Virus record (IMG/VR): IMGVR_UViG_3300029319_000457
Coordinates: 1 to 25,369 of that record
Reading direction: 5' to 3' (one strand)
Origin: a virus
DNA: 25,369 nt
The position numbers and the translations under genes were made by a program. This document shows, piece by piece, positions 4,410 through 25,369 of the stretch (the stretch's first letter is position 1; every line of letters starts with the position of its first letter). Below the pieces are notes generated by a model. The model was not told the DNA's origin, did no database searches, and saw only the letters and a program-made list of their open reading frames with translations.

Positions 4410-6020
4410 TTATGCATCAAGCTCATCGTGGTAAACAATACTAAATCCACGTTTGCCAGAAGTTGTTTTTATCCTACTTGCAAATTCGTGTGTAATCTTG
4501 ACACCAGAATCAACGGTCCCGTACATTACAGAGTAATCATAGCCAGACGGGTTAGAGTCGGCTCCTAGATGAGTTCCAGAATTTGCTATAAAATTAATGT
4601 CGGCGCGATTTGGATAGGAGTCAACATGCGGTTCTCTACTGAAATAAACCCTGTCGCCAGAAGGTTGGTGGCTCTTGCTGAATATACCGTAGCACCCGCT
4701 TTGTTTTACCATAGAGAGGCTTTCGCCCCCTAGAATTCTATCTACTTGTACGTGAGAACCACTAGCTACTTCAATTGATATATTAGATTGCCATCTTGAT
4801 CTAGACCAATGACTATCTTCCTCTAGACATGTTATGTTCGGATCTGAATTTCTAAATATAAATTTATAATCTCTTGTATAATCGTATCCGCTAGAGTGTA
4901 CCTCAAAACCCGCTCCGTCTACCAGTTCGTCACTTAGATAGCCACAAACCGTGTCATTGTGGAATCCTACGCCTCCATCATCACAAAGACCGCTAGTTGC
5001 TAAGTGTAGTGTCTTGCAGTCGTACAGACATTCATTTATAGTGTTGTATTGTGCATCATTTATTATAGCGTTACCTTTAACGAATATGTCATTAAAGTAA
5101 CCATCCCACAGTAATTTATCGGCTCCAGCAGCACCATTACCGGACCAGCCTAAAGAGTATATACCATTTTCTTTTGGTACAATGCTACCATTTACTGTCA
5201 TTAATGCTTCTCTGGGGCCAGAACCAAGCACACCAGAGATAGCGTCAGTCCCTACACCAATCTTCTCTCCAGAGAAATGTATAATCTCGTTAACAGAGTT
5301 CCAAGGATAACCCTTATTACCTAGATTAAATTCTCCGCTATGGGAAGGGGTAATGTCTCCAGAAACCTGTAGCGTTCCGTAGGGGTGGTTCCAGCCAATA
5401 CCTATAGAAAGTCTTCTTTCTTGCATATCCCCATACATTAATGGGACTGCACCAGAAGCTGATGTATAATCCTGACAGTCGTAGCCGCTATCTATTGGGT
5501 CTACGCCTAAAAAGAACTTATAACTATGATCAGTAGGAATATGGCTACCAGCACCATGACCAATGGCAATATTAAAAGAGCCAGTCCTGAGAGACTGTAA
5601 AGAAAAAGAGCCTATGGCAGTGTTGCCTGACCCCTGAGTGTTTCCGGCGAGACTGTTAAAACCAAAGGCTGTATTATAAGTACCGTCTAGGTTGCAACCT
5701 AAAGCGTGTGATCCACCTGCGGTATTCTGCGAACCTTCAAAGTTTGCGCCTAATGCATAGTATCCAAAAGCTGAGTTGTCAACACTACTTCTTCCTGCAT
5801 ACTTTAGTTTTCCTAAAGCTAGCTCGCCAGCAATTGTACTTCTGGTGTCTGGAGTTGCAAAGTTTGCACTTACTATCTCGTTGCCATCCGTAAATAAATG
5901 TACGGAATCGGCTAAGTCTCTAAGAGATATTCTTAGATCTAGTGGAGATATGAGCTGGGTAGAATTGTCTTGTAATAGAGAATTAATTTTCTCTATATAC
6001 TCAGATTTTGATAATATCAT
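4410..6020 (-). CDS. Fibre-like protein with N-terminal beta-roll repeats
   Basis: Predicted 536 residues. The first 50 (MILSKSEYIEKINSLLQ...) look like a small alpha-helical attachment domain. Residues about 81-160 contain four to five beta-roll repeats (NSAFGYYALGANFEGSQN, NTAFGFNSLAGNTQGSGN, NTAIGSFSLQSL, NIAIGHGAG). The remainder is beta-rich and of unknown fold, and includes GTLQVSGDITPSHSGEFNLG, a pattern common in tail-fibre proteins. Its repeat class matches that of the next gene, so the two may form a bipartite fibre, this one carrying the virion-proximal part. The Shine-Dalgarno in front of the start is weak (ACGGTCATACA), so coupling to the gene upstream is likely. Confidence 0.72.
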   Translation of the reverse strand: MILSKSEYIEKINSLLQDNSTQLISPLDLRISLRDLADSVHLFTDGNEIVSANFATPDTRSTIAGELALGKLKYAGRSSVDNSAFGYYALGANFEGSQNTAGGSHALGCNLDGTYNTAFGFNSLAGNTQGSGNTAIGSFSLQSLRTGSFNIAIGHGAGSHIPTDHSYKFFLGVDPIDSGYDCQDYTSASGAVPLMYGDMQERRLSIGIGWNHPYGTLQVSGDITPSHSGEFNLGNKGYPWNSVNEIIHFSGEKIGVGTDAISGVLGSGPREALMTVNGSIVPKENGIYSLGWSGNGAAGADKLLWDGYFNDIFVKGNAIINDAQYNTINECLYDCKTLHLATSGLCDDGGVGFHNDTVCGYLSDELVDGAGFEVHSSGYDYTRDYKFIFRNSDPNITCLEEDSHWSRSRWQSNISIEVASGSHVQVDRILGGESLSMVKQSGCYGIFSKSHQPSGDRVYFSREPHVDSYPNRADINFIANSGTHLGADSNPSGYDYSVMYGTVDSGVKITHEFASRIKTTSGKRGFSIVYHDELDA

Positions 6021-11936: not shown

Positions 11937-13922
11937 TTAGTAAATATCCTTCATCGAGTCAGTAAACCAATTGGGGCCAGAGTACATATCTCCCTGTTTT
12001 TCGCTTTTCTCCATAGTTGCAAATCCTCCATAGAAATTGTACATTGTCGCTTCCGGCAATCTAGCTAATGTTCTAGCCGCCATGTTAGCCATGATTAGTG
12101 CTGAGTAACGGTCTTTTCTTTGCTTACCCTTTTTACCTGTGCCTACTACTGTTTCTGGTGTATCCCACTTATCTCTTCCTGTAGCTGTTTGTGTTATCTG
12201 AATCATAGTAAGCTCATCTTTTAGGTCTTCTATTTCCATTACACATTGTTCTAGTGTGTCAAAAACCCTACCTTTAAGACCATCTTCTACGTTTGATAAT
12301 CCAAGGGTTATCGCGTCAAATCTAGGAAAGAGTATAGCTTTGTCTTCTAGATCTTTTCTTAGTCCATGATTTGCTTCTGCCAGCCAATCATACTTTGCAA
12401 ACTGACACATCTCAAGTATATGTAATCCTCTTTGATCGTCTGTGTCCTTTGGCTTGTCGTCGTCTATAACGGGCCATATGGCCACTTCTCCGTCCTCTAG
12501 CTTATCTGAGTCATGCAATGACTCCATGACCGCTATACCGCCCCCCTGAGCGTCCATAGCGATATGTACGCAAGGGAATATTCTCATGAGGTCTCTGATC
12601 TTTCTAGCGCAGTAAGCATAAAAGTCAGACTCTGAAGAAAAGCCACTCTTAACCTTCTGCTTATGCTGCTCCCTATTCGTTGTCCAACAATGCACTATTC
12701 GCCTATGGTCACTATTAACCTCAAGGACTACTATACTAAAATTATCAACTTCAGAAGCGGGGTCAACACCAAAAATATACTTCTTGTTAGGGTCACCCCT
12801 AAGACTAGCCTCAAAGATAACATCCTCACCCTTGCTGTCTTTGATTATTGTTGAATCATTAGAGCCATCATTAGAAACGCAGGACTCAATGAGGGTGCGC
12901 TTAAAGAACCCCTGAGAATCGCGTGTGAAGCAAGCTCCGAACTCCATTTGATATATACCGGCATGAACCGTCGCTTTCGATCTGGCGACTTGTGAGGCGT
13001 CCATGAAGCCTTCTGGTAAAAGTTCGTAAGGAACTCTGATAATCGAGTAGTCTTTCCAGTTAAAATCTTTAGGTGGATCTTCGCCAAATATTTCTCTTAA
13101 TCTATTTTGCTTGCCCTGACTTTTGATTATAGACTTCCATTTTTTCCAGTATTCAGCAAAATGATTGAAGTCATAGTAAGCTGTACCACTAAGAATAATC
13201 TGATTGTCTTTCTTTTCTAGTACCGAGTCTGTCTCTTCTTCAATCTCTAAGCCTAACTCCAAGGCTTTCTTTCTTGCTGCTATCTTCTTTACATTCTCTA
13301 TCGGGTCTGAACTTACCGCAGCAAAGCCTGCAACAACGGTTTCAAAAATATCACGAGGTATGGAGGCAAACTCATCAGAGATAATATCGTTAGCCCTTTG
13401 ACCCCTGATTTTTTGTCCGTCCCCCAAAGGTAAACAAGTGACGCGAGAGTTATTAATGCGCATAACGCAACGGTCCACATCTCGGCGTGGTCCAGAGTTT
13501 GCATCACACATGCTCCTTAGTATAGGTGAATTATTCCAGATTGTTTCCATGTATTCAAACAGAACTTTAGATTGACGGAAAGCAGCACCTACAACCACGA
13601 CTTTTCTATCGGGCAGCAGTAAAGCTCTAATCATAGAATACAAAGATAGAATAAAAGATTTACCAAAACCACGACTAGCTATGAGCATGGGGAATCTTCT
13701 GTTCCACATTTCGCATAAGAATAGTGCTTGAGATGGAAGTATGTTGATGTTAAAGATTTGTTTGCATAGAAACGAGAAATACTCTGGTCTAGTCATTAGC
13801 CACAGCATTTTATAATGATAATCATCATCATTGAAGTTGACGAACTTGAACGGATTGAATACTTTCTGATCGCCTATATCTAGGTTTAGCCAAGCTTCGT
13901 CTATATTTTTTAGGTTGTTCAT
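11937..13922 (-). CDS. terL: Terminase large subunit (packaging ATPase and nuclease)
   Basis: Predicted 661 residues. The protein pumps genome DNA into the procapsid and cuts it to length. The ATPase half shows a Walker A SRGFGKS at about 83-89, Walker B IISDE at 180-184 with the catalytic Glu, and a coupling motif SGTAYY at 245-250. The RNase H-like nuclease half shows FGVDPASEVDNFS with Asp388 and HIAMDAQGGGIAV with Asp458. A third acidic residue is expected further on (candidates lie in the DKWDTPETV region). Start and upstream stop overlap as ATGA with the ClpP-like gene, so translation is probably coupled. Both activities look intact. Confidence 0.95.
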   Translation of the reverse strand: MNNLKNIDEAWLNLDIGDQKVFNPFKFVNFNDDDYHYKMLWLMTRPEYFSFLCKQIFNINILPSQALFLCEMWNRRFPMLIASRGFGKSFILSLYSMIRALLLPDRKVVVVGAAFRQSKVLFEYMETIWNNSPILRSMCDANSGPRRDVDRCVMRINNSRVTCLPLGDGQKIRGQRANDIISDEFASIPRDIFETVVAGFAAVSSDPIENVKKIAARKKALELGLEIEEETDSVLEKKDNQIILSGTAYYDFNHFAEYWKKWKSIIKSQGKQNRLREIFGEDPPKDFNWKDYSIIRVPYELLPEGFMDASQVARSKATVHAGIYQMEFGACFTRDSQGFFKRTLIESCVSNDGSNDSTIIKDSKGEDVIFEASLRGDPNKKYIFGVDPASEVDNFSIVVLEVNSDHRRIVHCWTTNREQHKQKVKSGFSSESDFYAYCARKIRDLMRIFPCVHIAMDAQGGGIAVMESLHDSDKLEDGEVAIWPVIDDDKPKDTDDQRGLHILEMCQFAKYDWLAEANHGLRKDLEDKAILFPRFDAITLGLSNVEDGLKGRVFDTLEQCVMEIEDLKDELTMIQITQTATGRDKWDTPETVVGTGKKGKQRKDRYSALIMANMAARTLARLPEATMYNFYGGFATMEKSEKQGDMYSGPNWFTDSMKDIY

Positions 13923-14569
13923 TTTAAGCTATCTATCGAGTTGAATTTTCTTGTATTCAGAACTAAATCCGCAAAGCCATAATAAACCGACTCGTTTGCG
14001 TCTAAGTACCAATCGCCTTCTTTAAATTTTCTTTTTAAGTAGTTTTTTACTTTATCATACGTTGGATCTGTATATTGCTCTTTGAAATATTTTGATTTCA
14101 GACAGGCTTCTGTGTAAATGTCAAGCATTGTCTCTGTCATTTTCTTTTCAAAAGCAGCTCCTTTTTGTACATCTAAGTAATTTCCTGAGTAGCCGCTAGA
14201 ACCAAAATGGCACATAAAGTAAGTATTTGGCATCATTACTCGCTTGTCGGCAGCTTGTAGGACTACGCTACTCATTGATTCTGCTTGTCCGTATGCAATT
14301 ATTGTCACATAAGACTTTGATAGGCATATGGCGTCAAATATAGCCATGCCGTCATTCCAATTACCCCCAACGCTATGCATGTGAATAATTATCGGGTCGT
14401 TAGATACACTGTCTAGGAATCTTATATTCTTATAAAAAGTGGACGCCATCTTGTAGTCAACGCCGGGATCATCGTCGGTATTGGCTACATAACCATGAAG
14501 GTAAAGTTCTCTATTCTTGACATCTATGCCATAGCTCTGTATGTCAGAAATAACATCTGAGTTTAACAT
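13919..14569 (-). CDS. ClpP-like serine protease
   Basis: Predicted 216 residues with the ClpP/crotonase-type fold signature: HSVGGNWNDGMAIFDAI, then GQAESMSSVVLQAADKR with candidate nucleophile Ser98, then PNTYFMCHFGS with candidate His121, equivalent to the GxAASMG...KR..LPN...MIHQP pattern of ClpP. The catalytic Asp would be in DWYLDANESVYYGFAD or just before it. Its place right before TerL is shared by many phages in which ClpP-like (S14) proteases serve in head maturation, but here a different prohead protease is encoded 4 kb further on, so the role may differ. It might process another structural protein or act on host proteins. Strong site AGGAG before the start. Confidence 0.88.
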   Translation of the reverse strand: MLNSDVISDIQSYGIDVKNRELYLHGYVANTDDDPGVDYKMASTFYKNIRFLDSVSNDPIIIHMHSVGGNWNDGMAIFDAICLSKSYVTIIAYGQAESMSSVVLQAADKRVMMPNTYFMCHFGSSGYSGNYLDVQKGAAFEKKMTETMLDIYTEACLKSKYFKEQYTDPTYDKVKNYLKRKFKEGDWYLDANESVYYGFADLVLNTRKFNSIDSLK

Positions 14570-14578
14570 AAAGATCTC

Positions 14579-15073
14579 CTAGTTGTTTAAAATTTCATTA
14601 ACCCTTTTAATTATACTTAGCACAGCCCATTTTGCGTTTTTCTTAGAGTCGCAGAATAAAACATGGATGCCATATTTCATCTGATACTCCATGACTCTTC
14701 TGAGCATAAACTTGTTTGTTATTTTTAAAGAGTCCCACTTTTCTTCCGGTATATCGCTACCTTCGGGGAAATTCATAACATCTGAGAGGGAAAACTCAAA
14801 TATCATAAATTTATAAGGAAAATCTTTCATTCTTTCTATTTCTTTAGCAAACCTTACAGCGTCGTGTCCGATATTGTTTGCAAACTCTACAACGCTAGCT
14901 TTTCTTTCTATACATAGCTTATCCTCTAGACCTTCTATACTATAGTCACCGGTGTCTAGCTTTCTATTCACCATACCTTTGCATACGTGATATCTAGAGC
15001 TACTGGGTTCAAAAGTGTAACCCTCTTGCTCTCTAGTATCTTTTATGATTGTAAACGGTTTAGATTTAGACAT
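14579..15073 (-). CDS. ERCC4/XPF-type nuclease
   Basis: Predicted 164 residues covering a single nuclease domain: KDTREQ (Asp12), GDYSI (Asp43) and CIERK (Glu56-Arg57-Lys58), the VERKxxxD-like signature of the ERCC4 superfamily, which binds a divalent metal and cuts branched or flapped DNA. There is no helicase and no obvious helix-hairpin-helix pair, so it is a stand-alone domain. It overlaps the HNH endonuclease gene by eight bases and precedes the ClpP-TerL pair. A likely use is resolving replication or recombination intermediates so the concatemer can be packaged. The family is clear; the substrate is inferred. Confidence 0.88.
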   Translation of the reverse strand: MSKSKPFTIIKDTREQEGYTFEPSSSRYHVCKGMVNRKLDTGDYSIEGLEDKLCIERKASVVEFANNIGHDAVRFAKEIERMKDFPYKFMIFEFSLSDVMNFPEGSDIPEEKWDSLKITNKFMLRRVMEYQMKYGIHVLFCDSKKNAKWAVLSIIKRVNEILNN

Positions 15074-16627: not shown

Positions 16628-17665
16628 TTAATTGAATTTGGCAGAAGCACATGTTCTGCACATTGTTTCATATGAATGTTCAATTACTTCTGCATGTTTT
16701 TCTGTAATCCAGAAGTCTCTTAGTTTTCCTTTCTCGAAGCTTCCAAAGACTGACTGCATCATGCTGTAATCATTGCAACACAGGAAACACTCTCCATTTG
16801 CGTTTACATGAATCCAGCCGAATGGTCTGCCACCTACTTCATGAGCATTGTGGCAACCTATAACCTTTTTATCCTTATTGCCCTTCATTTCAAACTTTAC
16901 AATAGCTTCTTTATTATCAATAACGCTGCTTATCAGACCAGCCCTGTCTATCAGGCTAGGGTTGCCATATATCTGCAAGGATGGAAATAATTCTTTTGCC
17001 TTATTTACTTCTTGTGCATGTTCACCCTTATGTACGTCTAGGTCTATATCTTGATCAAATTTATCGCCAAGCTCTATCCATCCGCCTTTGCCCAGTAAGG
17101 ATCTTTCTGTTATACCATTGACAACTATACTGAATGTTTTATGTTCCACCATGTTAGGTAGCTTTTCCATTGCGTAGTAGATATTCTCTATGACCCTCTG
17201 GTGCATTTCTGGTTTAGCATTGACTCTTTTGCTCCACTTGTTTGCATCTGTAAATATTGGCGTATTGAGATTAAGTCCATTAACAACGTCTGGGTATTCA
17301 GCTATGAGATCTACTTTTTGCTTTGTTAGAGTGGTGCCGTTGGATAAAATCATAAACTGGAAGTCAAGGCTTCTACATGCCTCAAGCAAGAAGTGAAAAT
17401 GTTTGTATAAAAGTATCTCGTTATAGTGCGCAGTGTAGAATCCAGAGAAATCAGGCGAAACTAATCCATCCTCTCTCTTTCTTTCTTGATCCACATCTTT
17501 TAATATTTTATAAAGTAATTCCTCTGACATTTGCTTCTTAGCATGAGAGGGATTATTCAAGTATCTAACTGGACAATACCAACAGCCTACATTGCAATGA
17601 CCATTAGGGTCCAACTGCATGTTGGCTATCTTGGTAGTCCTTAGTTTTTGTAGTATATCTTGCAT
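16628..17665 (-). CDS. Radical SAM/SPASM-type enzyme
   Basis: Predicted 345 residues. Residues 24-31 are CNVGCWYC, the CxxxCxxC ligand set for the 4Fe-4S cluster that cleaves S-adenosylmethionine. The barrel continues with FYTAHYNEILLY and MILSNGTTL. The C-terminal part carries further cysteines (C271, C293, C296, C297, C336, C339) in a GWIHVNANGECFLCCND...CRTC arrangement like SPASM or twitch domains, which hold auxiliary clusters in peptide- and carbohydrate-modifying radical SAM enzymes. No precursor peptide is obvious. The gene starts at a TAATG overlap with the probable small terminase and sits 15 bases before gmd, so a sugar or capsule-related modification is plausible. The substrate is unknown. 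Confidence 0.88.
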   Translation of the reverse strand: MQDILQKLRTTKIANMQLDPNGHCNVGCWYCPVRYLNNPSHAKKQMSEELLYKILKDVDQERKREDGLVSPDFSGFYTAHYNEILLYKHFHFLLEACRSLDFQFMILSNGTTLTKQKVDLIAEYPDVVNGLNLNTPIFTDANKWSKRVNAKPEMHQRVIENIYYAMEKLPNMVEHKTFSIVVNGITERSLLGKGGWIELGDKFDQDIDLDVHKGEHAQEVNKAKELFPSLQIYGNPSLIDRAGLISSVIDNKEAIVKFEMKGNKDKKVIGCHNAHEVGGRPFGWIHVNANGECFLCCNDYSMMQSVFGSFEKGKLRDFWITEKHAEVIEHSYETMCRTCASAKFN

Positions 17666-24184: not shown

Positions 24185-24216
24185 GAGAACGCCGCCTTCG
24201 GGCGGCTTCTCTTTTT
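24185..24216 (+). terminator. Strong rho-independent terminator
   Basis: GAGAA plus GCCGCC, TTCG tetraloop, GGCGGC plus TTCTC, then five Ts. A single bulged C is the only flaw. About 25 bases after the 67-residue gene. Confidence 0.95.
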
Positions 24217-24245: not shown

Positions 24246-24323
24246 CCTAAACCCTTGTCACCAAAAGACTTAGGTCAATCGGCAAATAAAAAGAAAAACT
24301 TTGAGAAATACTAAAGAATCCCC

Positions 24324-24351
24324 TTGACAATGACGATAAATATAGTATAAT
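24324..24351 (+). promoter_or_regulatory. Early promoter E7 with spacer operator
   Basis: TTGACA 24324-24329, 16-base spacer with GACGATAAATATAG (one change from the shared motif), TATAAT 24346-24351. No protein gene follows before the next promoter; it drives a structured RNA. Confidence 0.88.
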
Positions 24352-24378
24352 AAGAGAGTAAACAACAGCAAACAATAT

Positions 24379-24509
24379 GGGGCTTTTCGAAGGAGAAGAC
24401 CGGACGCTACTGCGTCACACAGTGTTTAAACGCTATCCCTTTAGCGGGGGATGACCTTTAGGCGTGAGACGTTGCCGGTAAAAGGCGGGTTCGACTCCCG
24501 CAAGCCTCT
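24379..24509 (+). ncRNA. tRNA-like structured RNA with a long insert
   Basis: Geometry of a tRNA: GGGGCTT (24379-24385) pairs with AAGCCTC (24502-24508); a T-arm GCGGG-TTCGACT-CCCGC (24485-24501) abuts that strand; ACCGG (24399-24403) pairs with CCGGT (24475-24479) at the anticodon-stem position; a five-base variable region separates them. Instead of an anticodon loop there are 71 bases with hairpins GACGC-TACT-GCGTC and CGCTA-TCCCTT-TAGCG. The D region is only 13 bases. No CCA is encoded. The missing D stem and helix at the anticodon position recall tmRNA, but 131 bases is far too short. No usable anticodon can be built, so I do not call it a tRNA. Confidence 0.5.
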
Positions 24510-24607
24510 AGCCTACAATTATGTTCCTAGCCGCTAGAGCGGTAACCGGTGCAAATCCGTGTAAAGCCCAAGGTGGGCGTGGGGTGCAATTCCCCTCTGG
24601 TTCGCCA
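24510..24607 (+). ncRNA. Second tRNA-like 3' module ending in CCA
   Basis: GGGG-TGCAATT-CCCC (24581-24595) resembles a T-arm with an unusual TGC in the loop. After one unpaired base come seven bases CTGGTTC, a discriminator G and encoded CCA (24605-24607), the exact layout of a tRNA 3' end. GCCCA-AGG-TGGGC (24566-24578) looks like a variable arm, and CCG/CGG at 24531-24549 like a D-arm. The expected 5' strand GAACCAG is absent; the best partner is TAACCGG at 24543. It may be a decayed tRNA or a designed 3' mimic. Boundaries are approximate. Confidence 0.35.
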
Positions 24608-24639
24608 AAATAAACCGGAAAACACTCAAGTCTGACCCC

Positions 24640-24667
24640 TTGACATTCCGATATAATATAGTAGAAT
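24640..24667 (+). promoter_or_regulatory. Early promoter E8 with spacer operator
   Basis: TTGACA 24640-24645, 16-base spacer with CCGATATAATATAG, TAGAAT 24662-24667. Drives the Gp88-like gene. Confidence 0.85.
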
Positions 24668-24701
24668 AAGACTGTAAGCAACAACAACCAAAGGAAAGCA
24701 A

Positions 24702-25369
24702 ATGTTAAAGTTCTCAGCAGCCAACGCTAAAATCGAAGCACTCGCCAATGATCCCGAACTCGCACAATATCTGACGGGCAAACGTAAGGTTTACTCGTTC
24801 GATCTTCTCAGTGGCTATTCTTGCCCATTCGCAGAATCGTGCCTATCTAAAGCTGTCGTACAACCAAACGGCAAACGTAAGATTAAAGACGGACTCAGGA
24901 CACAATTCCGCTGTTTCTCAGCTTCTCAGGAAGTCCAGTATACCAACGTATACAATCTTCGCAAGCACAATTTCGACCTGCTCAAGGATTGCAAAGACCT
25001 TGATTCGATGATCGATCTAATCATGAATAGCCTCTGCTTGCACACCAACGCTGGCATTGTACGGATTCATGTTGCAGGCGACTTCTTCAGTGAAAAGTAT
25101 TTTCAAGCGTGGGCCATAGTCGCGTCTGCACTTCCCAACATTTTATTCTACGCTTATACCAAGTCGCTCAAGTATTGGGTACGCCATCGACATTTATTAC
25201 CTAAGAATTTCATTTTGACCGCTTCGTATGGTGGGCGAACTGACTACCTAATCGAACTGCACAATCTACGCTTTGCTCAAGTGGTCTACAGCGAACAAGA
25301 GGCTCACGACCTCGGCCTTGCTATCGACCACGACGATACACACGCAGCGAAGCCAAGCCTACGCAATCA
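24702..25369 (+). CDS. Gp88-like phage protein (3' end beyond the right edge)
   Basis: MLKFSAANAKIEALANDPEL begins 222 visible codons. The segment FDLLSGYSCPFAESCLSKAV followed by FRCFSASQEVQYTNVYNLRK and later IVRIHVAGDFFSEKYFQAWA matches a conserved phage family I know as Gp88 (mycobacteriophage gene product 88). Its hallmarks are the SCPxAxxCLSKA cysteine pair and the FRCFSASQE block. The function of that family is not established; the clustered Cys could bind a metal or cluster. AAAGGAAAGCAA precedes the ATG. The GDFFS and YSEQEAHDLGL parts further support the family. It is transcribed from its own operator-bearing promoter. Confidence 0.8.
   Translation, partial: MLKFSAANAKIEALANDPELAQYLTGKRKVYSFDLLSGYSCPFAESCLSKAVVQPNGKRKIKDGLRTQFRCFSASQEVQYTNVYNLRKHNFDLLKDCKDLDSMIDLIMNSLCLHTNAGIVRIHVAGDFFSEKYFQAWAIVASALPNILFYAYTKSLKYWVRHRHLLPKNFILTASYGGRTDYLIELHNLRFAQVVYSEQEAHDLGLAIDHDDTHAAKPSLRN

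Follow-up and report, generated by a model that had tools for sequence, protein, structure and literature searches.

The locus and the fold of RNA1

The window, meaning the whole stretch of DNA analysed here, is a 25,369-base IMG/VR phage fragment for which a close cultured relative was not found; with the terminases of Bacillus phages of the Slash/Stahl group, that of the window has an identity of no more than about 27%. Genes of this phage include those for an ERCC4-type nuclease (14579-15073), a ClpP-type protease (13919-14569) and a radical SAM/SPASM protein (16628-17665). A small gene with a terminator (24191-24206) lies upstream of a tRNA-shelled RNA, here called RNA1, and a GP88-family gene with its own promoter (24640-24667) lies downstream. 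The features, all on the plus strand, are as follows.

24324-24351, plus: RNA1 promoter, TTGACA-16-TATAAT with CGATA in the spacer, 12/12 consensus match
24379-24509, plus: RNA1, tRNA-shelled RNA, 131 nt; the last base is the discriminator position, U
24379-24385 with 24502-24508, plus: acceptor, GGGGCTT with AAGCCTC, 7 bp, one G.U
24386-24397, plus: short D-arm, TTC-GAAGGA-GAA, GG in the loop
24399-24406, plus: P2 5' strand, ACCGG(A)CG, where a tRNA has its anticodon stem; partner strand 24473-24479
24407-24411, plus: unpaired 5' bulge CUACU at the P2-P3 junction
24412-24420, plus: P3 5' strand, GCGTCACAC, pairing with 24464-24472, one A.A mismatch
24421-24434, plus: P4 hairpin, AGTGT-TTAA-ACGCT
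24435-24452, plus: P5 hairpin, ATCCC-TTTAGCGG-GGGAT
24453-24463, plus: linker, GACCUUUAGGC; GACCU and GC invariant in the consensus
24480-24484, plus: variable region, AAAAG, from the sequence and the alignments
24485-24501, plus: T-arm, GCGGG-TTCGACT-CCCGC, 5 bp, 7-nt loop
24523-24607, plus: RNA2, second tRNA-like RNA, about 85 nt, on the same transcript as RNA1
24702-25369, plus: GP88-family gene (PF17338), Pfam E 2.7e-38, running off the contig

The acceptor, T-arm, variable region, stem at the anticodon position and 71-base insert given in the preliminary description were all found in place, the 71 bases separating the stem strands ACCGG and CCGGT. The D-arm, which had been considered almost missing, proved to be a covarying 3-bp stem with a GG loop, and only nucleotides 8-9 are absent. 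The insert is not a pair of independent hairpins; it is a single domain in which P3 encloses P4 and P5. Local hairpins GACGC/GCGTC (24403-24416) and CGCTA/TAGCG were rejected because they are not kept in the relatives L103 or L110. The promoter that had been assigned to RNA1, and described as operator-bearing, is present and perfect, but it is not special: it belongs to a recurrent phage class, TTGACA-N4-CGATA-N7-TATAAT having three perfect copies in the window (21134, 23532 and 24324) where 0.1 would be expected.

RNA2, which the preliminary description left unmentioned, has the T-loop TGCAATT, a predicted variable-type hairpin (GCCC-AAGGT-GGGC), an encoded GCCA end and a poorly paired acceptor, and it was not called by ARAGORN. 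Two copies are known, those of the window and of the related phage L104, which are identical at 82 of 85 positions, the adjoining RNA1 and GP88 being far less alike; RNA2 is absent from L103, and its 3' flank matches that of the type A RNAs (see below) in L002 and L056. A joint fold of RNA1 and RNA2 was no better than shuffles and was rejected. A terminator was not recognised after RNA1 or RNA2, and the spacers between the tandem tRNA-like units resemble ACAATACAAT.

Relatives, covariation and conservation

Relatives of RNA1 were found in seven other IMG/VR phage records and provide five further distinct sequences. The upstream small gene led to L103, the first direct relative, and to the divergent L104, and core patterns led to L108, L109 and L110 and then to L133/L134. 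In blastn searches the whole region was without relatives in cultured phages and RNA1 was without matches in plasmids; the exact T-arm pattern was absent from the viral contigs searched, and exact scans with two core patterns over 84,980 bacterial and archaeal genomes returned zero relatives.

RNA1 was observed in three genomic settings and once in a record of 126 kb, G025, that lacks the GP88 gene. The GP88 locus, used as the locus marker in relatives, is common to L002, L004, L014, L056, L101, L103, L104 and L134. In the window, L103, L104 and L134, RNA1 with its own promoter precedes GP88, and a separate GP88 promoter follows RNA1; in L108/L109 and L110, RNA1 is grouped in arrays with other structured RNAs, and the genes downstream are unrelated ones. 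RNA1 therefore probably acts in trans, and the varied contexts, the separate GP88 promoter and the G025 occurrence make cis regulation of one neighbouring gene unlikely.

Two alignments were evaluated. The seven-row alignment, with six distinct sequences, was made by fitting to the model, a procedure that biases it towards the structure, whereas the five-row alignment (window, L103, L108, L109 and L110) was not fitted. In the seven rows 97.0% of cells pair in the 40-pair structure and 23 of the 40 pairs show changes on both sides, as against three to four such pairs in slid registers, and 0 of 500 shuffles reached the observed value; in the five rows 97.4% of cells pair and both-side changes occur in 14 of 38 pairs, as against zero to one in slid registers. 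Single-sequence folding of RNA1 was not significant (z -1.7), so the case for the structure rests on this comparison, by which the secondary structure is firmly supported.

The covariation extends over the shell and the core. In the seven-row alignment the acceptor is paired in 100% of cells with both-side change at four pairs, and P2 in 97.6% with both-side change at two; such changes also affect all three pairs of the D-stem (TTC/GAA, CTC/GAG, TCT/AGA and CTT/AAG among the relatives), seven of the eight pairs of P3 (for example, GCGTC/GACGT to TTTTG/CAAAT) and three of the five pairs of P5. The T-stem likewise has both-side changes in three of five pairs (GTTGG/CCAAC, GTGAG/CTCAC and GAGGG/CCCTC in relatives), and the middle pair of P4 is U.G, G.U or A-U. 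The bulge CUACU is invariant in the five-row alignment, its position being occupied by AUUGCGA in L104/L134; the P5 loop, UUUAGCGG (UUUCGCAG in L104/L134), is nearly invariant; G3-C70 is present in all members; and position 73 is U in five of the six distinct sequences and A in L134. The consensus fold runs from the acceptor (7 bp) through the D-stem (3 bp), P2 (CCGG(A)CG/YGCCGG), the CUACU bulge, P3, P4 (AGNGU-loop-ACNCU), P5 with its UUUAGCGG loop and the linker GACCUNNNRGC to P3', P2', the variable region and the T-arm.

The window RNA fits the RNA1 family model R2/R3 (acceptor, D-stem, P2 with the 5' bulge, P3, P4, P5 and T-arm). R2, built from the window, L103, L108, L109 and L110, scored the window at 158.6 bits and the held-out L104 and L134 at 77.8 and 64.4 bits, respectively. 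A strict geometry scan for a full 5-bp T-stem, T-loop and 7-bp acceptor over 267 kb of the window and relatives returned five places outside tRNA and tmRNA calls, as against 0.0 in first-order Markov random sequence: RNA1 of the window, the family members in L108 and L134, type A in L002 and, as the fifth, another long tRNA-like RNA (103 nt) in L110. The preliminary description had set against its reading of a tRNA-like RNA that is not a tRNA the loss of the acceptor and P2 pairings in relatives that keep the sequence; the outcome was the opposite, in that the relatives keep both pairings, and a canonical tRNA fold was not found, which supports that reading. Taken together, RNA1 is a real RNA family that Rfam lacks, one in which a conserved core is enclosed by a tRNA-like shell.

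In the closest pairs the core (80 bases) is 89-100% identical and the shell 53-85%, with core and shell identities of 100 and 85% for window-L108, 89 and 53% for L103-L110, and 91 and 57% for L104-L134; for window-L103 they are 80 and 65%. Between the two main branches (the window versus L104/L134), core and shell have diverged to a similar extent (56-59% versus 46-57%). Invariant sites make up 19 of the 32 unpaired core positions versus 5 of 25 in the shell, and the GP88 proteins of the window and of L103, L104 and L134 are only 55-59% identical. Judged from the aligned sequences, conservation is inverted, the core being kept as sequence and the shell mainly by compensatory changes.

Sister RNAs in related phages

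The GP88-anchored loci carried a different but similar RNA, type A, at the same place, and BLAST of RNA1 and RNA2 against these loci matched only the common promoter. Type A RNAs, newly described here, were found in L056, L002, L013, L004, L014 and L101 and show both-side compensatory change in 11 of 40 pairs. Type A shares with RNA1 the acceptor, P2 with the 5' bulge, P3, two distal hairpins and the T-arm, and, except in L013, it occupies the locus before GP88, where the flanks are similar too; it differs in being longer (about 157 nt) and in having another core sequence and an encoded GCCA end (GCCT in L013). Model R3 gave the type A RNA of L056 22.9 bits, a score that is merely suggestive of one family with RNA1, because ordinary tRNAs score almost as high (up to 21 bits).

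Other structured RNAs were observed in these phages. Type B RNAs (L006 4529-4703 and L008 1356-1530) have the T-loop TGCAAAT, an encoded CCA and R1 scores of 24.6-27.3 bits, and their P2 and bulge resemble those of type A. A conserved type C RNA, CTTGGACATGTCAGT ... GAGGCATC, precedes a tRNA-like RNA in four phages (L006 4318, L008 1150, L013 1037 and L016 772). L110 has, at 4607-4709 on the minus strand, an RNA with the acceptor GACTGGT/ACCAGTC and two identical T-arms (GAGGGTTCGACTCCCTC), which scored 21.5 bits with R1, and a T-arm-bearing RNA common to L103 (4312-4403) and L141 (minus strand, about 950-825) was not called by ARAGORN in L103. In addition, upstream of RNA1 in L108 (5262-5420) and L110 (about 4950-4790, minus strand) lies non-coding sequence, AAGTGAGTCTGYGAGGCGACTTRATGACGGCCAATCTCAGCC..., that is strongly conserved and has its own promoter.

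Readings of RNA1 and known systems

RNA1 has the 7-bp acceptor and the T-arm of 5 bp and 7 nt that are typical of tRNA, but a 5-bp stem closed by a 7-nt anticodon loop containing U33 is lacking, 71 nt lying between the P2 strands, and ARAGORN called no tRNA in the window. The two bases after P2 are A-U in four of the five RNA types, as at tRNA positions 32-33, and A-C in RNA1, which gives no basis for reading an anticodon. It is very unlikely that RNA1 is a tRNA gene whose anticodon loop holds an intron or an extra arm: P2 does occupy the anticodon-stem position, and deleting P3-P5 in L104 and L134 leaves a 7-nt loop, AUUGCGA, with U33, but the same deletion in the window leaves 10 nt (or 5) and no valid loop. 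Moreover, ARAGORN with intron settings at the normal threshold found none in the RNA1 relatives, a lowered threshold placed a different anticodon and splice site in each relative, and an Rfam intron match was not found.

At the gathering threshold, zero Rfam families were found in the window (4227 families, among them Y RNA, group I introns and GOLLD); at E<=10, positions 24300-24700 gave two chance-level matches, neither over the RNA1 core, and the RNA1 relatives in L108, L110 and L104 were without matches. RF00023 and permuted tmRNA models likewise had no match at E<=10 in 24300-24700, in a search that has power: among 23 phage records searched it recovered one-piece tmRNAs in 12, and it recovered permuted two-piece forms in G001 and G027. 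tmRNA genes occur across this uncultured phage clade (L062-L073, L076 and L113); two short RF00023 matches first taken for mini-tmRNAs were a tRNA in L075 and part of a permuted tmRNA in L076. The alanine identity of tmRNA, G3.U70/A73, is also lacking in RNA1, as is a tag frame with a conserved stop, the window having TAG, L103 and L110 a later stop and L104 and L134 none, and the proposal of a very reduced tmRNA-like RNA was therefore not supported. A minimal tmRNA with the short tag AIPLAGDDL* in the window frame is scarcely credible: ARAGORN at a strongly lowered threshold proposes it in the window and L108, but these two sequences do not differ in this part, the frames of L103 and L110 have another end (LTA*), no stop is near in L104 and L134, and the changed codons coincide with compensating pairs.

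Mycobacteriophage DS6A has a tag-less, TLD-only tmRNA, and tmRNA is inhibited by a molecule of this kind, which may act by titrating SmpB (PMC4131195, PMC11915505). RNA1 showed neither the tmRNA-like D-loop motif nor the TLD homology of such forms, as it is without an RF00023 match. By contrast, an 83-nt RNA of a related phage (L016 985-1067) scored 38.9 bits with RF00023, below the cut-off of 47, and has the acceptor GGGCTTG/CGAGTCC, G3.U70, A73 and a tmRNA-like D-loop, the mRNA-like domain being replaced by a stretch of only about 26 nt; on these sequence features it is a predicted TLD-only tmRNA like that of DS6A, which RNA1 is not.

We propose, with moderate confidence, that RNA1 is a non-coding RNA that acts in trans for the phage and has the architecture of a natural tRNA scaffold, a reading suggested by the excess of core over shell identity in window-L108, L103-L110 and L104-L134. 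The acceptor stem, short D-arm and T-arm would imitate the outer half of tRNA, and a folded core (P2 with its 5' bulge, P3, P4, P5 and the GACCU linker) would replace the anticodon loop. From what is known of tRNA maturation, the host tRNA machinery may read the shell, with RNase P acting at G1 and RNase Z or exonucleases, perhaps with CCA addition, at U73; such processing could free RNA1 from the RNA1-RNA2 precursor and protect it, and during infection the core could then bind a protein or an RNA of either the host or the phage. End formation of the tRNA type is suggested by the missing terminators and the tandem tRNA-like units. Some observations speak against the scaffold reading: the T-loop of L110 is ATCGTCA, so the canonical elbow is not strictly kept; in L134 and L004 the 5' ends of the RNAs at the GP88 locus coincide with the predicted +1 or lie only a few bases from it, so RNase P would not be needed there; CCA is not encoded in the RNA1 relatives; and core and shell are similarly diverged between the two main branches. 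More tentatively, and with some doubt, a modular tRNA shell with exchangeable folded cargo might constitute a categorically new phage RNA class, encoded at a conserved locus and in arrays, with cargo (RNA1, type A, type B and the double-T-arm RNA) swapped by phages within a common processing shell and trans-acting RNAs delivered during infection.

Other roles were weighed against the scaffold reading. A cis-acting leader of the downstream gene, either a riboswitch or an attenuator, could be imagined from the position of RNA1 before GP88 in several phages and before short genes in L108 and L110, but it is quite improbable, given that GP88's own promoter lies between the RNA and the gene, that downstream genes differ among phages and that terminator or start-site pairing was not seen. 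Phage tRNAs are known to counter host defences and toxins that attack tRNA, and the tRNA-like geometry of the shell, conserved as structure, would suit a decoy for such a system recognising the acceptor/T half; this is unlikely, since a pure decoy needs no 80-nt core at 89-100% identity and since RNA1 is without an anticodon, the site of action of most known tRNA-cutting defences. The decoy for tRNA-handling enzymes of the preliminary description is conceivable in general, but it leaves the stronger conservation of the core than of the shell unexplained. A ribosome-rescue decoy, in which a tag-less tmRNA-derived domain would sequester SmpB, AlaRS or EF-Tu and so prevent trans-translation in the host, has a precedent in the proposal for the DS6A TLD-only tmRNA (PMC4131195, PMC11915505), and it agrees with the one-piece or permuted tmRNA genes of the phage kin, one of which has the 83-nt tmRNA-like RNA, and with the distance from the acceptor to P2, which at about 13 nt is like that of tmRNA. 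It is nonetheless unlikely, considering that RNA1 is without an RF00023 match at E<=10 and the tmRNA D-loop motif, has G3-C70 and U73 instead of G3.U70/A73 and conserves its core better than its shell.

The RNA1 family is thus a covariation-supported addition, absent from Rfam, that resembles a natural version of the laboratory tRNA scaffold, and it raises the question of whether regulatory RNAs of phages are produced and protected with the help of tRNA maturation enzymes. RNAs of this type escape tRNA and tmRNA finders, and the invariant core motifs are direct handles for a search for the partner of RNA1.

Compared with known systems, RNA1 matches canonical tRNA in its acceptor and T arm and in the length of its variable region, resembles it in part in its short D-arm, and differs in having 71 bases instead of the 7-nt anticodon loop and in not being called by ARAGORN. 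With tmRNA (RF00023) and its DS6A form it shares the acceptor, a T-arm with a UUCGANU loop, the lack of an anticodon, a D-region of about 13 nt in which the stem is short or absent and a long P2 instead of the anticodon arm; it differs in being without the tag, pseudoknots, G3.U70/A73 and RF00023 match, and in its conserved P3-P5 core, which has no counterpart in tmRNA. Bacterial Y RNA (YrlA) is a regulatory RNA with a tRNA-like module, which RNA1 also has, but RNA1 is unmatched in Rfam and its ends form an acceptor stem. In the engineered tRNA scaffold, an RNA cargo is inserted in the anticodon stem of a tRNA; both it and RNA1 hold a cargo in place of the anticodon loop, whereas RNA1 is natural and its cargo is conserved.
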